The notes beneath the pieces are model-generated. The model was not told the origin of the DNA. It made no database searches and saw nothing but the letters and a program-made list of their open reading frames with translations. Positions 1 through 8,945 of a DNA stretch of 64,000 nucleotides are shown piece by piece. The DNA is taken from contig JAJDVT010000062.1 in the NCBI GenBank assembly GCA_022826005.1, positions 1-64,000 of the forward strand, given 5' to 3'. Numbering within the stretch: the first letter of the stretch is position 1; each line of letters starts with the position of its first letter. The translations under genes and the position numbers were made by a program. The stretch comes from Gemmatimonadota bacterium (GTDB taxonomy: Bacteria > Gemmatimonadota > Gemmatimonadetes > Longimicrobiales > Gaopeijiaceae).

Positions 1-2
1 CG

Positions 3-230
3 TTAGAGGGGCAGTTGACGAGGGCCTTGCGGAGGTTGTCCGAGCAGTACGAGCGGGAACAGCGGCGGCACTCCGAACAGGTCGAGGCCTTGCGGCGGCA
101 AGTCGAGCGGCAGACCGGGGAGAACGCCACCTTGAGGCGGCAAATCGAGCGGCTCGACGAGCAAGTGACAGGCTTGACCGAGTATTACGGGACATCTGGC
201 GCCGCGAGACCGCGCGGCGACGGCTGGTGA
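3..230 (+). CDS. coiled-coil protein, C-terminal fragment (5' end outside window)
   Basis: The frame is open from the first complete codon of the window and ends at TGA, so this is the tail of a longer gene; a TTG at 15 is the first possible internal start. The visible residues are a charged heptad-like coiled coil rich in Arg, Glu and Gln (repeats such as ALRRQVERQ and TLRRQIERL), followed by a short Gly/Arg tail. No enzymatic motif is visible. Similar Arg/Glu coiled coils occur in the N-terminal part of IS66-type transposases and in structural proteins, so the function is left open. About 260 bases without a recognisable gene follow. Confidence 0.4.
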   Translation, partial: LEGQLTRALRRLSEQYEREQRRHSEQVEALRRQVERQTGENATLRRQIERLDEQVTGLTEYYGTSGAARPRGDGW

Positions 231-495
231 CAAGGCCGGCGACGCGCGGGCCGGATCGCGATGCCGGGCCGAGCCGGTAGGGGTTTGCGGCGGTGGATGT
301 ATCGGGAACGCCTCGCATCGGCAGATTCCCGGCCCATCTCACCCTGTGTGGGCTTCGGCAACATGTTCGCGCCACCTCTTTCGTAGCCAAACAGGGGTCG
401 GTGCTGGACAATCAGGGCCGTCAAGTACCGGGAGCGCTATGTTCCTCATCCGAACGCGCTCGTCGGGGAGAAACGAAACAGGGGTATAAGGTCAG

Positions 496-1344
496 ATGCA
501 ACCGCTCACACTCTACGCCGACATGGCGAACTGGATCGACTTGGCCGAGGGGCGCGTGGATTCAAGACCACTTGCGACCGCGATTGCCGGCGCCCGCGTT
601 GTCCCCGTCCTGTCACTGCCCCACTTGCTCGAACTGGCCTCGAACCCCACGAAGGATGGGAGGGTACGTGTCGCGAACTGCATGGATTCGATCGAGGAGA
701 TCGGTTCGGTCAAGTGGCTACCGCACTACCGCGACGTGATTCGGAACGAAGCCGCGTCCTGCTTCAACGAGATTCTCCACGGCAAGTGGGAATGTCCGGC
801 GGTCTTCTTCGATACGTTCCACGACACGGTGCGGAATTCAGATCGAGAGCCCATCATGGCGGTTGGCGAACGAATGCCGCCTCTGCGGATTTCCGAAATA
901 GTGGATGTGCTGGCAGGAATTGAGGAGTTCCAAGAGTACCGCGCCGACTGCTTTGGCTACCCGGATCTCAGGCAGAACATCGTGAGGGAACGCCATGCGC
1001 GAAGGGCCAAGAAGCGATTCACCGAGGTCGAACTACGAACATGGCTGGCGAAGATGCTTCCCGAACAGGTTGACGTGGCTCAGAGGCAGAAGTTCGCCGA
1101 GGAGGTCGACTTGACCAAATGCCCCGCTTTCCGCGCGATTTGGGCCTTCCACGAAGCGTCCAATCTGGACCCCAAGGGCGCGCGCGCTAGCGACATCGCC
1201 GACCTCTGGCACCTCTCGGGTGCCGTCTATTGCGATGTGGCCTTTGCGGATCGCCGGACCGTGGAAGTGCTCCGACAGGGCAACTACGAAGAGCTACCCA
1301 AGCGTAACTCAGAGTTTCCGGGGTGGATTCGGAGTCTCGCGTGA
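496..1344 (+). CDS. PIN-like domain protein, function unknown
   Basis: A 282-residue soluble protein with no signal peptide. The N-terminus reads as a beta strand ending in an acidic residue (LYADMANWIDLAEGR, Asp9), and the C-terminal part has the spaced acidic pattern of PIN nucleases: Asp233, Asp236, His239, then Asp247 and Asp252 in YCDVAFADRRT. PIN domains are Mg-dependent RNases, often toxins. The protein is about twice the length of a VapC toxin and no antitoxin gene lies next to it, so it may be a stand-alone PIN-like nuclease of an accessory region. A weak AAGG lies upstream of ATG. The PIN assignment rests on the pattern of acidic residues only. Confidence 0.5.
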   Translation: MQPLTLYADMANWIDLAEGRVDSRPLATAIAGARVVPVLSLPHLLELASNPTKDGRVRVANCMDSIEEIGSVKWLPHYRDVIRNEAASCFNEILHGKWECPAVFFDTFHDTVRNSDREPIMAVGERMPPLRISEIVDVLAGIEEFQEYRADCFGYPDLRQNIVRERHARRAKKRFTEVELRTWLAKMLPEQVDVAQRQKFAEEVDLTKCPAFRAIWAFHEASNLDPKGARASDIADLWHLSGAVYCDVAFADRRTVEVLRQGNYEELPKRNSEFPGWIRSLA

Positions 1345-1506
1345 ACTCTCTACATCCTTTGGCTGCGCGCAGCTTCATGATCTGCACTGATATCCTCACC
1401 ACGCGTAGCGGGCGGACGGCGCTCGTTCACAACGCAATCCCAACCCTCATCTGGACCTACATGCTTCACCCGGGGACGTCGGCTGCGATTCCTCCGCGAC
1501 GAGCGA
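1345..1506. other. intergenic, convergent
   Basis: Region between the PIN-like gene and the end of the minus-strand propeller gene. No gene or clear terminator was recognised. Confidence 0.4.
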
Positions 1507-2784
1507 CTACGGTCTTCCCGAAGCCCGAACTACTAGATCGTGAATTCGCACGTATTCTACACCCAAGTCGTCAGTCCACACGCCGAGCACATAGTCATGG
1601 CCGATCTCGAACACTCGGAGGTCAGTCGGTATGTCAACAAAACCCAAGGGAATCCCTTTCCCGTCAAACACAGACCATTGCCGGCTCGGTGACGTCGGAT
1701 TGTCGAAGCTAGCCTCCTTGACCCACAATTGTCCCCCTGGCTGGAGCAGCAAAGTCTCGAACGCAGGCATTGTGTCTGGAACCGGAATACTCTCGTAGAG
1801 GGACCTGCGCCTCGCAGAGCGTCCGGCTCCATCACCGTCCTGTCCCCAAGTCGCATTGATCCAAGCCTCACGATGAGCCGCCGACACTAATCGAGCTTTG
1901 TCAGCTCGACGGACGATCCGAACGATCCCATCCAGGCGCCTCTCGATCAACCTGATGTCGAACCTGCGGGTACTGCCATATGCCACGAACTCACCGTCTG
2001 TATCTGCCTCAAATGTCGGCAAGAAAGGGTTGCGTACGCCCTCAACTCGTACACTGCCACCACCGAGGTTGCTCCCCATTACCCAGCGCTGAGTGCCTAG
2101 CGTGGCGGCCACAACGTCGGATGCCATTCCATCTTCAAACACGTGGAGGTTTGAAACCCACTCGTGCTTGATCCAGCCGTCACCCGTAGGCGGGAGGAGA
2201 GGTCCCGCTAGCACGTTAATGTAGCCCCAAAAACGTCCGTCGTTGAACCAACCGATTGCTTGCGCACGCCTGAGGCCAGCGAGTTCATAGATTCCTTCAG
2301 CTACTGCGAGGCTCGTGGTCTCAATTGCACGTCCGCTATCCCAATCAAATTCGGTGGTTCGACCAGTCTGGCTGTCATAGGCCAACACATTGCCGTCCGG
2401 TGACACACCGACCTTGGTGAGGCGACCGAACTCCCCAGGGCCACCACCCAAACCACCGAGTGAATGACTGAAGCGGCCACTCGAATCGAACAACTTCACT
2501 TCGCCGGTTCCAGAATTCGCGACCGCGATCCCACGACCCGGTATTCGCGCGACATCTGTGACACGGTGTAGCGCCGCGGCATCGTCTCCAAGACTCCCGA
2601 TTTCAACCGAAGGCGTCGGGGAAAGACCGATGCTGGTAGAGCGCGCAGACACCTCGTTGTGCCAGTGTGTTGCGATCTCGATCCCAGCACTGTCCACGAC
2701 GGAGAATCCACCGCCTACCGTGTCCCTTTCAGTACACGCGGTGGTGAACAGAATCAAGACTACCAGCGCACACCTGAGTATCAT
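1507..2784 (-). CDS. 6-bladed beta-propeller lipoprotein
   Basis: 425 residues with a lipoprotein signal peptide (lipobox LFTTAC, Cys17). The body shows repeated propeller blades with the signature of the BF3164/NHL-type exported propellers: a VTDVARIPGRGIAVANSG blade, LFDSSGRFSHSLGG, GGGPGEFGRL, and a final strand on a regulator-like EYVRIHDLVV. It is predicted to sit on the outer face of a membrane and bind a ligand or partner protein; no catalytic residues are visible. Its ATG overlaps the TGA of the upstream DsbA-like gene (ATGA, 2781-2784), so the two are translationally coupled. Base composition is lower in GC than the flanking metabolic genes, suggesting transfer. Confidence 0.75.
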   Translation of the reverse strand: MILRCALVVLILFTTACTERDTVGGGFSVVDSAGIEIATHWHNEVSARSTSIGLSPTPSVEIGSLGDDAAALHRVTDVARIPGRGIAVANSGTGEVKLFDSSGRFSHSLGGLGGGPGEFGRLTKVGVSPDGNVLAYDSQTGRTTEFDWDSGRAIETTSLAVAEGIYELAGLRRAQAIGWFNDGRFWGYINVLAGPLLPPTGDGWIKHEWVSNLHVFEDGMASDVVAATLGTQRWVMGSNLGGGSVRVEGVRNPFLPTFEADTDGEFVAYGSTRRFDIRLIERRLDGIVRIVRRADKARLVSAAHREAWINATWGQDGDGAGRSARRRSLYESIPVPDTMPAFETLLLQPGGQLWVKEASFDNPTSPSRQWSVFDGKGIPLGFVDIPTDLRVFEIGHDYVLGVWTDDLGVEYVRIHDLVVRASGRP

Positions 2785-3467
2785 CGCATATCCTCTTCGC
2801 GCATGTGCCTTGCGATGGCCCGTCGCAAGGACGCTGCCGACATCGCGCCCTTGTACAGGCTACCATTGAGGATGAACGTCGGTGTTCCGGTGATGTCCAA
2901 CTCCACTCCAGTAAGAACATCCCTTCTAACCGTCGCCAATGCCGAATCAGCCACCAAACATTGGTCGAATTGTGCAAGATCACGCACGCCTGCCGCAATG
3001 GCGAACGCGGACCACGACTTTGAACCTATGGCCTGCTGGCGTTCAAAAAGAACATCGTGATACTCCCGGAAGACTCCTTGCCGTCTCGCGCATTCACTTG
3101 CCGCTGCCGCATCCTCTGCATGTGGGTGGATCGGCAAAGGATAGTGTCGGAAGACGGTTGCGAGATCATCCCCAAAGTGTTCCTTAGCGTCAGCGACTGA
3201 TCGGGCAAAAGTGCGACAATAGGGGCATTGAAAGTCCATAAACAATACCATCGTTACCTTAGGGTCACCGGCACCGACACTGTGACGTGTTCCGGCTATA
3301 TCCTGCCACTCATTGACAAAACCCTGAGCCTCTGGCACCGACCCGACAGGCCATCCCAAATGCGTCTCAGCCAAGCGGCCCAGGACCAACACAACCACGA
3401 CGCCCGCACAAGCCACTAGAAGCCAGACCAAGTAGTCCGACCAACCATAGCGCCGCGCCTTACCCAT
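2781..3467 (-). CDS. membrane-anchored DsbA-like thioredoxin-fold oxidoreductase
   Basis: 228 residues: a short cytoplasmic N-terminus, one transmembrane segment (about residues 14-31), then a periplasmic DsbA-type domain. The active site is Cys81-Pro-Tyr-Cys84 in VLFMDFQCPYCRTFA, and a cis-proline loop GTPTF lies near residue 197, both hallmarks of the DsbA/DSBA-like family that oxidises or isomerises disulfides of exported proteins. It is the middle gene of a minus-strand locus: a six-cysteine exported peptide upstream and a propeller lipoprotein coupled downstream. The neighbouring cysteine-rich peptide is the obvious candidate substrate; that link is inference. AGAGG lies 8 bases before ATG. 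Confidence 0.85.
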   Translation of the reverse strand: MGKARRYGWSDYLVWLLVACAGVVVVLVLGRLAETHLGWPVGSVPEAQGFVNEWQDIAGTRHSVGAGDPKVTMVLFMDFQCPYCRTFARSVADAKEHFGDDLATVFRHYPLPIHPHAEDAAAASECARRQGVFREYHDVLFERQQAIGSKSWSAFAIAAGVRDLAQFDQCLVADSALATVRRDVLTGVELDITGTPTFILNGSLYKGAMSAASLRRAIARHMREEDMR

Positions 3468-3690
3468 GCTCGCGGCCTCTGAGCCGAGGATCCGAGTAGC
3501 TAACGTGCAACTTAGACGGCTTGGTTGTCAGGGTTGCGGGCGACATGGTGAGAAAGTGGTAGATGGCTAGGCCCACGGACGCGAATCGACTCACCGAACA
3601 GGCCACACAAGCATGTACGGCTCCGGCAGGCGCTGCGGGGGATTCGAGCGCGGCTTCCGCACGTAGTCGAACCGTGTGGCATCTCGGCAT
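3460..3690 (-). CDS. possible small protein coupled to the DsbA-like gene
   Basis: A 76-codon frame whose TAA overlaps the start of the DsbA-like gene by 8 bases. It has a Cys-Val-Ala-Cys pair followed by a hydrophobic stretch (GLAIYHFL), but the N-terminal half is Ala/Pro/Arg-rich and there is no convincing ribosome binding site. It fills the 294-base gap between the cysteine-rich peptide gene and the thioredoxin gene. It could equally be a chance frame in a leader region. Confidence 0.2.
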   Translation of the reverse strand: MPRCHTVRLRAEAALESPAAPAGAVHACVACSVSRFASVGLAIYHFLTMSPATLTTKPSKLHVSYSDPRLRGREHG

Positions 3691-3761
3691 GCAGTCACCG
3701 AGGGCCGCGTCGTGGGTGCTGCGACGCCAAGCTCAAGGAAAGAACGGTACCGCGTTAGGTG

Positions 3762-3977
3762 TCAGTTCTCGATGCACTCGCAATCGACACCGTCCTCGGT
3801 CAACTCTCCGTCTTGGCATGTGAACGAGCATGTGTAGTTGTCATCGCAGTGTTCGGCCACGACGCCTACGATGATCCCGATCTGCACATCGCAGATATCG
3901 TCCGTGGACGCCGAGAGGTAGGAGGCACCCAAGAGGGTCGTGAGCAACGCGATGGCTCCTGTTACTGACTTTTTCAT
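3762..3977 (-). CDS. small exported cysteine-rich peptide (six Cys)
   Basis: 71 residues when started at the ATG at 3977, which is preceded by a strong GAGGAG; a longer frame runs to 4043 but lacks a start signal. Residues 1-24 form a classic signal peptide (MKKSVTG, hydrophobic core, cleavage near SAS-TDD). The mature 47 residues are acidic and contain Cys29, 44, 50, 54, 66 and 68, a disulfide-stabilised microprotein pattern. It lies upstream of, and in the same direction as, a DsbA-like thioredoxin and a propeller lipoprotein. The layout recalls the Bacteroidetes loci where NVEALA-type small exported peptides accompany BF3164-type propellers and thioredoxins, although no NVEALA motif is present. 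Function unknown. Confidence 0.7.
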   Translation of the reverse strand: MKKSVTGAIALLTTLLGASYLSASTDDICDVQIGIIVGVVAEHCDDNYTCSFTCQDGELTEDGVDCECIEN

Positions 3978-4198
3978 AACTCTACTCCTCAGGTTAGTAG
4001 GGGATGTGGTAGCGGCGACCCCTGAGGGGTGGATCGCGGTCACCAGTTGGCTAGGATATGATGGGACGTGTGGCCGCGGCTGTCAAGTCGGAGGGCGGCA
4101 TTCGGCGAGGTCTTCCTTTCGTCCCTACTTCCCCAGCTCAGCCATGAGTCGGTTGTCTCACCCCGGCGAATCCTGCGCCCACCCGGCGTTCGAGGCGG

Positions 4199-4480
4199 CT
4201 CAAGACGCGCAGCGAGGCGCTCGGCGGCATGTTCGCGACCGCCGAGGAGCCAACTCGCCCGCCTGCCCCCGGACGCGCGGCAGGGAAGGCCGCTCCGCTC
4301 GCTCCTCAACCACCGCGAGGGGCTGAGCGTCTTCCTCGAACCGGCCCCGCGTGCCGCTCGACGACAACCTCGCCGAGCGGGTGCTGCTGCGGCCCGGTCG
4401 TCGGGCGGTGCCTGTCGTTCGGCTCCGACAGCGAGACCGGCGCACGCTCCTTGGTCGATGGCACGCCCGGACGCAGGAGC
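4199..4480 (+). pseudogene. IS66-family transposase, eroded C-terminal fossil
   Basis: Pieces of the IS66 (TnpC) C-terminus appear in order but in three different reading frames. They are a segment around LKTRSEALGGMFATAEE (from 4199), RQGRPLRSLLNHREGLSVFL (about 4278-4337), the hallmark PLDDNLAER (4354-4380, the family's DNNxAER motif) and GPVVGRCLSFGSDSETGA (about 4391-4445). At least two frameshifts separate them and the DDE catalytic core is gone. The fossil lies directly upstream of a DUF4338 fossil, which is the arrangement often seen in IS66-type elements. Confidence 0.7.
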
Positions 4481-4497
4481 GGGATGACGGCTCCCGC

Positions 4498-5155
4498 ATG
4501 AGTGACCGCATCGAGTGCCGCGACCACGGGCGCGACTTCCCGGAGGGGGAGATCGCGTGGCTGCGCAAGCTGATCGCCGGGCCGCCCGCGGCCAACCGAC
4601 ACGGCCTGTCGAAGGAGTTCTGCCGCCGCATCGGCTGGCTCAAGCCCGACGGCGGGCTCAAGGACATGATGGCGCGCGTCACCATGCTCGCCATGCACGA
4701 CGACGGCCTCATCGTCCTGTCACCCCCGAAGTGGAAACAGAACCGGCCCGGACCCATCGTCTTCGGACAAGACACCGAGCCGCCACTCTTCCCGCCACCC
4801 ACGACCCTCGACGAAGGTCAGGCCGCTGGAGATCCGCACCGTCGTCGGCGGTACGCGGCAGGGGAAGCTCTGGAACGAGTTCGTCGCCCGCCACCACTAT
4901 CTCGGCTGCAAGACCTTCGTCGTCGCGCAGATGCGCTACGCCGTCCACGACCGCAACGGCTGGCCGCTCGCCATGATCGGCTTCAGCACCGCCGCATGGG
5001 CGCTCGCTCCACGGGACCGCTTCATCGGATGGACTCCGACCCTGCGCAGGAAGAACCTGCCGCTCGTCATCGACGACCCCCGGTTCCTAATCCCGCCTCT
5101 GGATCCGCATCCCCCAACCTCGGATCCCACGTCCTCGCACGCGTCGTTGGAGGTG
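4498..5155 (+). pseudogene. DUF4338 (DruA-like) gene, frameshifted and truncated
   Basis: Begins at ATG 4498. Frame 1 gives a DUF4338 N-terminus (KEFCRRIGWLKPDGGLKDMM, then VTMLAMHDDGLIVLSPP) to about 4815. The reading then moves to frame 2, with GGTRQGKLWNEFVARHHYLG, a conserved family block, and continues through VIDDPRFLI at about 5095. It then returns to frame 1 for PNLGSHVLARVV (about 5118-5152), after which homology stops. The normal C-terminal part is missing. DUF4338 proteins are found both as DruA of the Druantia phage defence system and as passengers of IS66-type elements; here the IS66 fossil next to it supports the latter. Not functional as read. Confidence 0.7.
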
Positions 5156-5159
5156 CCTG

Positions 5160-5328
5160 CAATCGCAGGCGGTCCTTTCGCTTCTGCAGCCCCGCCTCCC
5201 GCGGCGGCGGACGGACTCCACGGCTTGGCCGAACGCTTACGTCCGAGGACCTCCATTACGGCACGACGGATTCCTGCTCAGGTTTGCATATCTAAAGTGA
5301 TACACGGCTCGTCAGCCTCGTTGTATAA
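5160..5328. other. remnant and AT-richer junction, no gene
   Basis: Sequence between the DUF4338 fossil and the truncated LRR gene. The last ~100 bases (5280-5370) are clearly AT-richer than the surroundings and contain the junction where the LRR gene loses its 5' end. No terminal inverted repeat could be assigned with confidence. Confidence 0.35.
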
Positions 5329-7539
5329 GACATTGTAGCACAACTACTTAGAACGTTATCACGTCGCTATATCTCGGTTCCGCCCGAACTGGGCCAGCTT
5401 CGTCAGCTGTGGTGGTTGCTGCTGGACCGCAACCAGCTTACCGGCGGGATTCCGCCGGAGCTTGCAGAGCTGCAGGACCTGAGACTGCTGTCCCTGTCGA
5501 ACAATCCGCTGTCGGGACTGGTGCCGGCGCGTCTGACGGAACTATGGGGACTGGACATGGTGGATCTCCATGGAACTCGCGTGTGCACGCTGCCAACACC
5601 GGAGCTTTCCAGGTGGCTTGCAAGGATCGACCGGCCCTACCTGAACGAATGTACCCCCGCACAACTCGACGAGGCGATCCTGATCGACCTGTACCGCAAC
5701 AGTGGCGGGACCGAATGGCGCTCCAGCGACGGGTGGACGGGGGAGCGGCCGCTCGGCGAGTGGCACGGTGTGGACGCCGGCACCGACGGCAGGGTCACGG
5801 GACTGGCGCTGCGGGACAACGGGCTGGCTGGCCCGTTCCCGCACGAGCTCGCGTACCTGGAGGCGCTCCAGGTGCTGGATCTGGCCGACAATCCCGGCCT
5901 GCAAGGCGAGGTGCAGAGCAGGCTTGCCGAGCTGGACCTTCGGGAACTGCACATCGCTGGCACGGAGCTGTGCGGCCCGCGCGACACCCGGTTCCTGGAG
6001 TGGTGGGAAGCGATCCCGGATCGGTCCGGCAGCCTGTGCCTGAATCCGGAAGCGATCCATGTGTCCATGCCGATGTGGTCCCTCAACCAGGCAATTCAGG
6101 ATGGGCGAAACACTCGCCTGATCGGGGGTCGCGACGCCTTCCTGCGGGTCTTCCCGGTCGCGGACGAGAGGAACTGGTACGATGCCCGGGTGCGGGCGGA
6201 GTTCTTTCACGGCGACACCCTCGTTCACGGCGTGACGATCGACAGAACGGGGAACGGGGGGATCGCGACCGGCGTCGACTACAGCCGCCTCGACGGCTCG
6301 CTCAATGCAGTGATCCCGGGGGTGGTGCTGGTCCCCGGCGTGGAGATGGTCCTCACACTCGATTCGGCGGCGCTCCCACTCAAGCCCGGCAGCCGGACCC
6401 GGTCTCCCACTGCGGGCCGCCACGCCCTCCCGGTCGTCTCCGTGCCCGACCTGGAACTGGTTCTGGTTCCGGTCCTGTCAACGCAGAGTCCGGACTCATC
6501 GGTGGTGCGGGAGACGAACGGTCTCACCGAAGACAGTCCCCTGGTGGCGGCCGTGCGCCATCTGTTGCCCGTGTCCGGGTTCGAAGTGACCGTGCGAACT
6601 CCCCATGTGACGTCCCTGGCCATGAACGCCGACAATCTCAGCGGGATCCTGTTGGAGATCGACGCGGTCAGGAAGAATGAAGGGGGATCGGGATACTGGG
6701 TCGGTCTGGTCCGGCGTGGGCTCGGCGGGCAAGCCGCCGGAAACGATGTGAGCGTTGCGGCGCTCGAGGGAGACATTATTGCGCATGAGGTGGGGCACAA
6801 CATGAGCCTGTTGCACGCGCCTTGCGGCGGCCCCGACAGAGTCGATCCCGCGTACCCCGACCCGGATGGCCGAGTCGGGACATGGGGATACAACCCGCGG
6901 GGCCGCGACATTGCGACATTGGGGCCGGACACCCTGGTGCACCCCAGGACGGCGGACGTGATGTCCTACTGCCAGCCCACATGGATCAGCGGATACCACT
7001 TCGAGAAGGCCCTCCGGTACCGCCTGCAGGTCCAGGCTCAGGCGGCGGCGGTCGAGTCCGGCACGCAGCGGCGGCAAAAGGTTCTGCTGATCGGCGGACA
7101 CGCCGGTCCGGAACAGGCGGTCCTTGAGTCCGCCGTCCTCCTCAACGCCCCGCCGTCACTGCCGGAATCCTCCGGCCCCTACAGGATCGAGGGGTTCGGC
7201 CCTGGGGGGGAACTTCTCTTCTCGCTCCGCTTCGCTCCGGAAATCGAAGCCGAAAGCGGAAGGGGCCTCTTCGTCTTCCTGGTTCCCTACGACCAGGCAT
7301 GGGCCGGCTCGCTGGGCCGCATCGAGCTCACGGGGCCCGCGGGCTTCGATGTTCTGGACGCCACCACCGACCGGCCCTTCGCCGTGGTCACCGATCCCGG
7401 GACGGGACGGATCACGGCGATCCTGCGGGGCGTCGACGCGCTCGAAGGAGCCGACGCGCGCGTTCGGTTCGCCGAACAAGGTGACCTGTCCTTCAGCCGG
7501 GGCCTGCCCGACCTGGCCGCGCTGCGCGAGAGAAGATAG
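5329..7539 (+). pseudogene. LRR-metzincin secreted metalloprotease, 5'-truncated
   Basis: The frame is open from 5329 (stop at 5326) but enters directly in the middle of a plant-type leucine-rich repeat (VPPELGQLRQLWWLLLDRN). There is no signal peptide, start codon or ribosome site before the first internal ATG-like start at 5416. From that start (707 codons) residues 1-190 are LRRs with a capping Cys region. About 210-440 is an unassigned domain, and HEVGHNMSLLH at about 457-467 is a metzincin-like zinc site, with a Met-turn VMSYC near 516; a beta-rich C-terminal domain follows. The adjoining IS66/DUF4338 debris suggests the true 5' end was lost to a mobile element. The intact 1205-residue protein at 54531 has a comparable LRR-metalloprotease plan. 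Confidence 0.6.
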
Positions 7540-7592
7540 GAGGCAGCGTGTAGCGCGACCCGGATTCGAGACGGGCGAAAAGCTACAGCGGG

Positions 7593-8945
7593 CTATTGCC
7601 TGCGAACCAGCCGCGTCTCCGGGTACTGGGCATGCCAGCCGAACCAGAAGGCGCGATGAGCCGGGAGCCGCTCCAGGCGTTCACCGGTCGGCCCCACGAG
7701 CGCGTCCTCCCCGACGTTCCACCGCGACCCGCCGTCGTCCCAGGCCGTGTCGGCTCCGTCCCAGCGACCGAAGCGGCGCCCGCCACTCTCGTAGACGCGG
7801 CTTGCGCCGCTCCCGTCGGTCAGGACCACGAACTCCACCTCGCCGAGCGCGTCGTGATGGACCGGGTTCCTCGACAGAAATCCCACCCAGATCGCGAGCT
7901 GCTCACCCGGCGCGTCGTCGAAGCGGAGCGCGAGCACCTCGTCCTTGTTGCGCAGGCGGCGGTCAAGCTCGGGGACGCCGAACATCAGCCTGTCGGTCGC
8001 GAAGTATTCCCGGTAGGCCGCTCCTTCGCTGTAGTCGCGCTGGTGGCCCGTTTCGAGGGACAGCACGAGGGTCTCGGGATGCCGCCTGCGCCATTCCCCC
8101 CAGGTCGTGGTCACCACATGGCGCATATCGAGGCGGATCCCCTGCCCGACGAGCGGACCGACCGCGGGTTCGCCCGCGAAGGTCGACCAGAGCGACATGG
8201 TGGCCCGGTCGTACATGAGCTTGTTGGAGCGGTAGAGGAACCCGCTCGTGCCCAGTTCGTGGTGCAACCCGTGGGCCGCCGACCGGTAGAGGATCATGGT
8301 TCCGCACAGCGTGCAGTAGACGCCGGTGTGGTGCTCGCCCGCGATGGAGTCCTTGAACATCTCGTGCCACGCCAGGATCCGCTTGGGATAGGCCCGCACA
8401 TCCCCATCGAGGGCAATCCCGAAAACAACATTGTCGTCGTTCAGGTAGCCCGCCTCCCCGGCGGGGATCATCTTCGGGTGGTCGAGGGGTGGAATGCCGT
8501 CCCGGGAGACACCGCCCCACCGGATCTCGTCGAGCCGGATGTTCGCGACCGGGTATTGGTCGAAGTAGTCCACAAAGCTGGGGTCGATCATCTCATACAG
8601 TTCCGCCTTGAATGCGGCGTACTCCGGATGCGTGCCCGGGTTGGTCCGCCAGACCCACTCCCACCAGCCCTCGAAATCACGTCCCAGCTTCTGCCCCGTC
8701 CGGCGCTCGAGCACGAAGATGATCCGTCGTACGCTCCGCTCGTAAGCCGCGAACGGCATCAACTCGACCAGGATCGACGCGTGCGAGTCGTCCCAATCCC
8801 TCAGGATCAGCGTTTCCGCGGCGTCCGCCTTCTGGCCGTCTTCCGAGAGGAGGTCCCAGAAGACCTCCAGGGGAGTCTGGGCAGCCAGGCGGGAGGGGGA
8901 GGCGAGGAGGGCGGCAGCGACGAACAGCAGGATTAGTGCGCGCAT
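7593..8945 (-). CDS. exported DUF3179 domain protein
   Basis: 450 residues with a cleavable signal peptide (MRALILLFVAAALLASP, cleavage near AAQT). The DUF3179 signature is plain: GEAGYLNDDNVVFGIALDGD, RAYPKRILAWHEMF, then GVYCTLCGTMILYRSA with the paired cysteines of the family, and GFLYRSNKLMYDR. DUF3179 proteins are secreted or lipoproteins of unknown biochemical role. The N-terminal ~140 residues are an additional helical domain. It is a single minus-strand gene; the two genes upstream of it are the Tat-exported epimerase (same strand) and the divergent MATE gene. Confidence 0.8.
   Translation of the reverse strand: MRALILLFVAAALLASPSRLAAQTPLEVFWDLLSEDGQKADAAETLILRDWDDSHASILVELMPFAAYERSVRRIIFVLERRTGQKLGRDFEGWWEWVWRTNPGTHPEYAAFKAELYEMIDPSFVDYFDQYPVANIRLDEIRWGGVSRDGIPPLDHPKMIPAGEAGYLNDDNVVFGIALDGDVRAYPKRILAWHEMFKDSIAGEHHTGVYCTLCGTMILYRSAAHGLHHELGTSGFLYRSNKLMYDRATMSLWSTFAGEPAVGPLVGQGIRLDMRHVVTTTWGEWRRRHPETLVLSLETGHQRDYSEGAAYREYFATDRLMFGVPELDRRLRNKDEVLALRFDDAPGEQLAIWVGFLSRNPVHHDALGEVEFVVLTDGSGASRVYESGGRRFGRWDGADTAWDDGGSRWNVGEDALVGPTGERLERLPAHRAFWFGWHAQYPETRLVRRQ

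Follow-up and report, generated by a model that had tools for sequence, protein, structure and literature searches.

Small exported peptides containing cysteines are encoded near genes for six-bladed beta-propeller proteins in the NVEALA/BF3164 loci of Bacteroidota. A locus of similar outline lies on the minus strand of the 64,000-nucleotide stretch analyzed here (the window; contig JAJDVT010000062.1 of a Gemmatimonadota bacterium), where an exported cysteine-rich mini-protein, a DsbA-like thiol oxidase, and a propeller protein are encoded together. We consider it likely that this locus is a maturation cassette, in which a Sec-exported mini-protein would be folded by its dedicated DsbA, with the propeller as an envelope partner that is probably periplasmic. 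Comparison with other genomes of the phylum shows, at the sequence level, an association of these genes, even cysteine numbers in the mini-proteins, fusions of DsbA with propeller, and horizontal transfer.

The first-pass annotation likened the locus to NVEALA/BF3164, and the comparison holds only as an analogy, in the small exported cysteine peptide near a propeller. It does not extend to membership, since the NVEALA profile (PF14055) did not match the window peptide at E ≤ 1 and had no hit across 61 genomes of the class, with a positive Bacteroides control. The two also differ in that the constant part here is the dedicated DsbA, while the peptides differ widely. By analogy, the nearest working precedent is the heat-stable enterotoxin II (STII) of Escherichia coli, a Sec-exported small protein that needs the Dsb system for its periplasmic disulfides and is then released across the outer membrane by MacAB-TolC (PMC5985334). 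STII relies on the general Dsb system, however, whereas the Gemmatimonadota loci encode a DsbA with the peptide and carry MacB-like permeases only at background level. A dedicated thiol enzyme accompanying a disulfide-bonded secreted peptide is also seen in the PedC/BrcD bacteriocin accessory thioredoxins (TIGR01295), but the window DsbA scores 12.1 bits against a cut-off of 120 and was rejected as a member, being of a different enzyme family.

The three genes in the window

The features of the locus are as follows.

3762-3977, minus strand: exported cysteine-rich mini-protein precursor, 71 residues (open reading frame [ORF], ATG start, Shine-Dalgarno motif; six-cysteine spacing as in locus L095, but for one residue)
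3985-3990, minus strand: GAGGAG, Shine-Dalgarno-like motif of the peptide gene (read from sequence)
2781-3467, minus strand: membrane-anchored DsbA-like thiol oxidase, 228 residues (PF13462 and PF01323)
3216-3227, minus strand: CPYC active-site motif of the DsbA, residues 81 to 84 (translation)
2781-2784, minus strand: ATGA, overlap of DsbA stop and propeller start that couples both genes (sequence; same overlap in L095)
1507-2784, minus strand: putative six-bladed beta-propeller protein, probable lipoprotein, 425 residues (PF17170; large paralog family; repeated strands in a low-confidence model)

This arrangement of a six-cysteine exported peptide, an anchored CPYC DsbA, and an ATGA-coupled propeller bears out the initial reading of the locus, as does a GC content below that of neighboring genes (0.54 to 0.59 across the genes for DsbA and propeller, rising to at most 0.61 immediately outside them, against 0.65 to 0.72 for most of the sequence on the right). 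A promoter and terminator scan returned nothing above chance.

The peptide begins with a hydrophobic signal region (predicted signal peptide at approximately residues 1 to 24), and its translation places cysteines at positions 29, 44, 50, 54, 66, and 68, in the pattern C-x14-C-x5-C-x3-C-x11-C-x-C. It had no match in Pfam, NCBIfam, PDB sequences, or plasmids, so that the small-protein family search proposed at first came back empty. A single-sequence model of moderate confidence (mean pLDDT 72) has a helix at 25 to 44 and strands at 48 to 55 and 58 to 68, and a fold search with this model matched no solved fold in the PDB. Nevertheless, the peptide is, as judged by its conservation, more than a chance ORF, since it is identical in two other species and a homologous trio from another family retains its six cysteines. 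The latter trio, L095 (genome G302, from another family of the order), is the one most closely related to that of the window, with the same gene order and overlap (DsbA ends at 5432, propeller starts at 5429) at 40% identity for the DsbA and 33% for the propeller. Its peptide has all six cysteines with the window spacing but for one residue, a correspondence reached by 8 of 400,000 random placements. Retention of the six cysteines was one of two tests set by the first-pass annotation, and its outcome supports that reading. Of 395 genomes of the phylum, 10 encode the window peptide subtype, and most of these belong to one genus of the L095 family.

The window DsbA matches PF13462 (84 bits, 1e-23) and PF01323 (67 bits, 3e-18) and has an N-terminal membrane segment, a cis-Pro motif (TP at 195-196), and a second cysteine pair (C126/C170). 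Across 23 relatives, C81, C84, C126, T195, and P196 are invariant and C170 nearly so. With a thioredoxin-type profile, CxxC, and cis-Pro all present, the protein is by these sequence features a DsbA-like thiol oxidase. It is not a member of NF041057 (Rcas_1661 thioredoxin-like lipoproteins; 61 bits, cut-off 190), and the NCBIfam search of the trio gave no equivalog. The propeller exceeds the cut-off of the 6-bladed beta-propeller family PF17170 (5.5e-6) over residues 86 to 162 only, and its model, built from four alignment rows, shows repeated strands at a mean pLDDT of 47, too poor for a fold search. The lipoprotein assignment made for it at the outset is plausible, as it carries a lipobox-like cysteine, but the motif (FTTAC) is a noncanonical lipobox, and we say only that the window propeller may itself be a lipoprotein.

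Mini-proteins encoded near related DsbAs

Relatives of the window DsbA were searched in 295 genomes of the class, many of them fragmented, and 80 Gemmatimonadota loci were examined with an ORF caller blind to cysteine parity (requiring an ATG, a Shine-Dalgarno-like motif, a signal peptide that includes a cleavage site, and four or more mature cysteines), in which a simple rule served to recognize signal peptides. Counting peptides co-oriented with the DsbA and within 1.7 kb of its ORF, we find by strict calling an exported ORF with four or more cysteines at 47 of the 80 loci, and a more relaxed inspection by eye brings in another 12, for a total of 59. A second sample, with another family member as query and a limit of 1.9 kb from the domain rather than 1.7 kb from the ORF, has a peptide at 24 of 40 loci. 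The same caller made one call in 342 kb of genus DNA without this DsbA, one in 708 kb of reversed DNA, and three in the 609 kb that surround generic DsbAs, most of them from other phyla (one of the three at a Gemmatimonadota locus), the last control coming from a DsbA-profile scan of named genomes that returned generic DsbAs of many phyla. The window peptide itself was missed by the caller, its cleavage site being weak, and the survey counts therefore do not depend on it. The first-pass annotation proposed, as a test, that the three genes should occur together in other Gemmatimonadota, and they do so far beyond the window.

Cysteine numbers are even in 49 of 51 strict peptides of the first sample and 25 of 28 of the second, and in 51 of 56 when counted by similarity cluster (p of about 6e-11). 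Even counts across unrelated peptide sequences are what closed disulfide sets would leave and, together with the dedicated DsbA, they support the earlier suggestion that the peptides are matured through disulfide formation.

Apart from their cysteines, mostly 4 to 10 in number, the peptides of the DsbA loci share little sequence, and none matched a family at its curated cut-off. Several loci encode two or three of them (L101, L108, L138, L144, and L288). The peptides are enriched in a leader motif (N..A, then GG or GA), which 10 of 51 carry as opposed to 3 of 194 other signal peptides. The peptides of L145 and L147 have a knottin-like pattern (C-x5/6-C-x5-CC-x3-C-xn-C) that resembles those of knottins, conotoxins, and plant defensin-like proteins, with weak similarity, below family cut-offs, to the AtDEF-like (plant defensin-like) and Conotoxin families. 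The pattern of the window peptide differs, and having no CC pair it was rejected as a knottin (inhibitor cystine knot).

At each of two other DsbA loci, the window genome itself encodes an even-cysteine peptide (10 and 8 cysteines) and a propeller. It also encodes an 8-cysteine exported peptide beside a propeller with no DsbA nearby (L048:12291-12518, minus strand), and the same gene is present in L275. The window propeller belongs to a large paralog family in the genus, and the notion that every propeller is paired with a peptide was rejected, as most copies have no neighboring cysteine-rich peptide. Since most propeller paralogs lack peptide and DsbA alike, it is on gene content the DsbA, not the propeller, that defines the system.

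Putative envelope partners and mobile DNA

Genes further out in the same loci (n = 152) served as background for partner genes. A propeller adjoins the DsbA at 40 of 80 loci versus 4 of 152 background genes (p = 4e-18), although the propeller assignment of distant members rests on one profile. Three loci encode DsbA and propeller as a single ORF.

L101:8526-10325: single-ORF DsbA-propeller fusion
L145:3399-5288: single-ORF DsbA-propeller fusion
L159:920-2725: single-ORF DsbA-propeller fusion

The linkers of all three are of low hydrophobicity, with no membrane segment between DsbA and propeller. Because DsbA acts outside the cytoplasm and is N-terminally anchored, the fused propeller should, from topology, be periplasmic. 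Several DsbA-adjacent propellers, moreover, begin with a plain signal peptide. The claim that the propeller senses or binds the peptide at the cell surface is thus weakened, the fusions arguing against a surface receptor as the general arrangement.

A second partner is an Oar-like outer-membrane barrel with a CarboxypepD_reg domain, which adjoins the DsbA or peptide at 9 of 80 loci versus 1 of 152 background genes (p = 4e-4), often together with a small PDZ protein, and which is absent from the window locus. The Oar TonB-dependent transporter can be required for protein secretion, as for PopC of Myxococcus (PMC6434023), and an exporter role at the present loci is putative. A variant operon of peptide, small PDZ protein, DsbA, and Oar-like barrel is seen in L097, L100, L102, L110, L114, and L117, with the barrel gene divergent in L102. 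CarboxypepD_reg proteins without a barrel match show borderline enrichment only (p = 0.07), and MacB-like permeases were rejected as a general partner (4 of 80 versus 6 of 152). At L141, a vitamin K-dependent gamma-carboxylase-like gene (6414-7778; HTTM and VKGC lumenal domain) directly follows the DsbA-propeller pair, and a second modification of the peptide by its product is possible.

The window trio lies in DNA common to several species.

1-5407, no strand assigned: segment common to three species at 98.7 to 99.96% DNA identity; mobile DNA (DNA comparison)

The identical peptide protein occurs in G208, where the DNA agrees as well, and in G088, where the gene differs by one synonymous change, and the segment is 99.96% identical to that of G208 and about 99% to that of G088. 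Given that rpoB of these genomes is only 80% (G208) and 87% (G088) identical to that of the window genome, the near-identity of the segment indicates recent movement of the window copy. In all three species the segment ends, at 5393-5407 of the window, in leucine-rich repeat (LRR) gene sequence. The end falls at the same bases inside different LRR genes (window 5380-5420, L062 near 1125, L269 near 5349), as if the element integrated into the LRR repeat motif. Beyond the left end in G088 lie a MobA/VirD2-like relaxase (L062:5966-7387) and the start of an integrase with an arm DNA-binding domain (L062:7633-7803), and the cassette most likely travels on a mobile element. Two further ORFs of the segment (496-1341 and 4351-5292) have no Pfam match, the second resembling a decayed transposase region by eye.

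Maturation pathway and rival readings

In the maturation pathway that we favor, the 71-residue precursor would be exported through Sec and lose its signal peptide, leaving approximately 47 residues with six cysteines, after which, as we strongly infer, the DsbA encoded beside it and anchored in the inner membrane would form three disulfides. The coupled propeller may then act as a partner of oxidation or of the next envelope step, whether in client holding, an oxidation complex, or hand-over, and is most likely periplasmic, given its fusion to the DsbA at some loci. Across the Gemmatimonadota, this DsbA subfamily would serve a large, fast-diverging set of mini-proteins, with an Oar-like outer-membrane transporter in the place of the propeller at some loci.

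Three observations weigh against this pathway. By our reading, 21 of the 80 DsbA loci have no peptide, and 5 of 79 strict peptides have an odd cysteine count. The main misfit is the G088 cassette, in which an in-frame 288-bp deletion between short GCAAG repeats (L062:3063-3461) has removed the C-terminal half of the DsbA, with the cis-Pro motif, while the CPYC half is kept and the peptide is intact. G088 carries other relatives of the window DsbA, one of which may serve the peptide, or the cassette may be decaying. The loci without a called peptide, 7 of which still have a propeller, could also mean that the clients of the DsbA are the propeller or other envelope proteins, the small ORFs being passengers or products of chance; this we regard as very improbable, as it is contradicted by the even-cysteine bias, the second sample, and the near-zero calls in control DNA.

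The remaining alternatives concern the propeller rather than the oxidation step. Propellers are common binding platforms, and the coupling of the propeller to the DsbA in the window, their adjacency in half of the loci, and the lipobox-like cysteine of the window propeller would suit a ligand-receptor module, in which the oxidized peptide is released and bound by a surface propeller lipoprotein on the same or sister cells. We think this unlikely, because the fusions indicate a periplasmic propeller at the side of the DsbA, several of the propellers next to a DsbA start with a plain signal peptide, some loci have no propeller at all, and no regulator gene is seen within the window trio. A self-protection function, with the peptide as an antibacterial mini-protein and the propeller as its immunity protein, would account for hypervariable peptides, for mobile DNA common to several species, for multiple cassettes per genome, and for the knottin- or defensin-like patterns of L145 and L147. 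It seems to us similarly improbable, since a DsbA-propeller fusion is unusual for an immunity protein, loci without a propeller exist, and the window peptide is not cationic but acidic.

As to what the mini-proteins do once matured, our guess, which we hold with somewhat less than even confidence, is that they are released and act on competitors, signaling or binding roles being less likely. A phylum-specific venom-like repertoire, in which hypervariable, disulfide-rich secreted mini-proteins, spread by mobile elements and each with a private oxidase and envelope partner (a propeller, in places fused to the oxidase, or an Oar-like exporter), are used against other cells, would be a secretion and maturation system without a described counterpart, and we put it forward just as tentatively. 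The literature searched, outside of which lay most subscription journals and all preprints, held no description of such gene sets.

This gene set recurs across the Gemmatimonadota in dozens of versions that look unrelated, which points to a large, undescribed repertoire of disulfide-rich mini-proteins. Bacterial disulfide-rich mini-proteins have so far been known as isolated cases, and a phylum-wide set with dedicated DsbAs would, if our reading is true, be a new source of stable scaffolds. It would also account for part of the large propeller expansion in this phylum, and would make testable how a DsbA comes to have a client of its own and what function propellers have in the periplasm.
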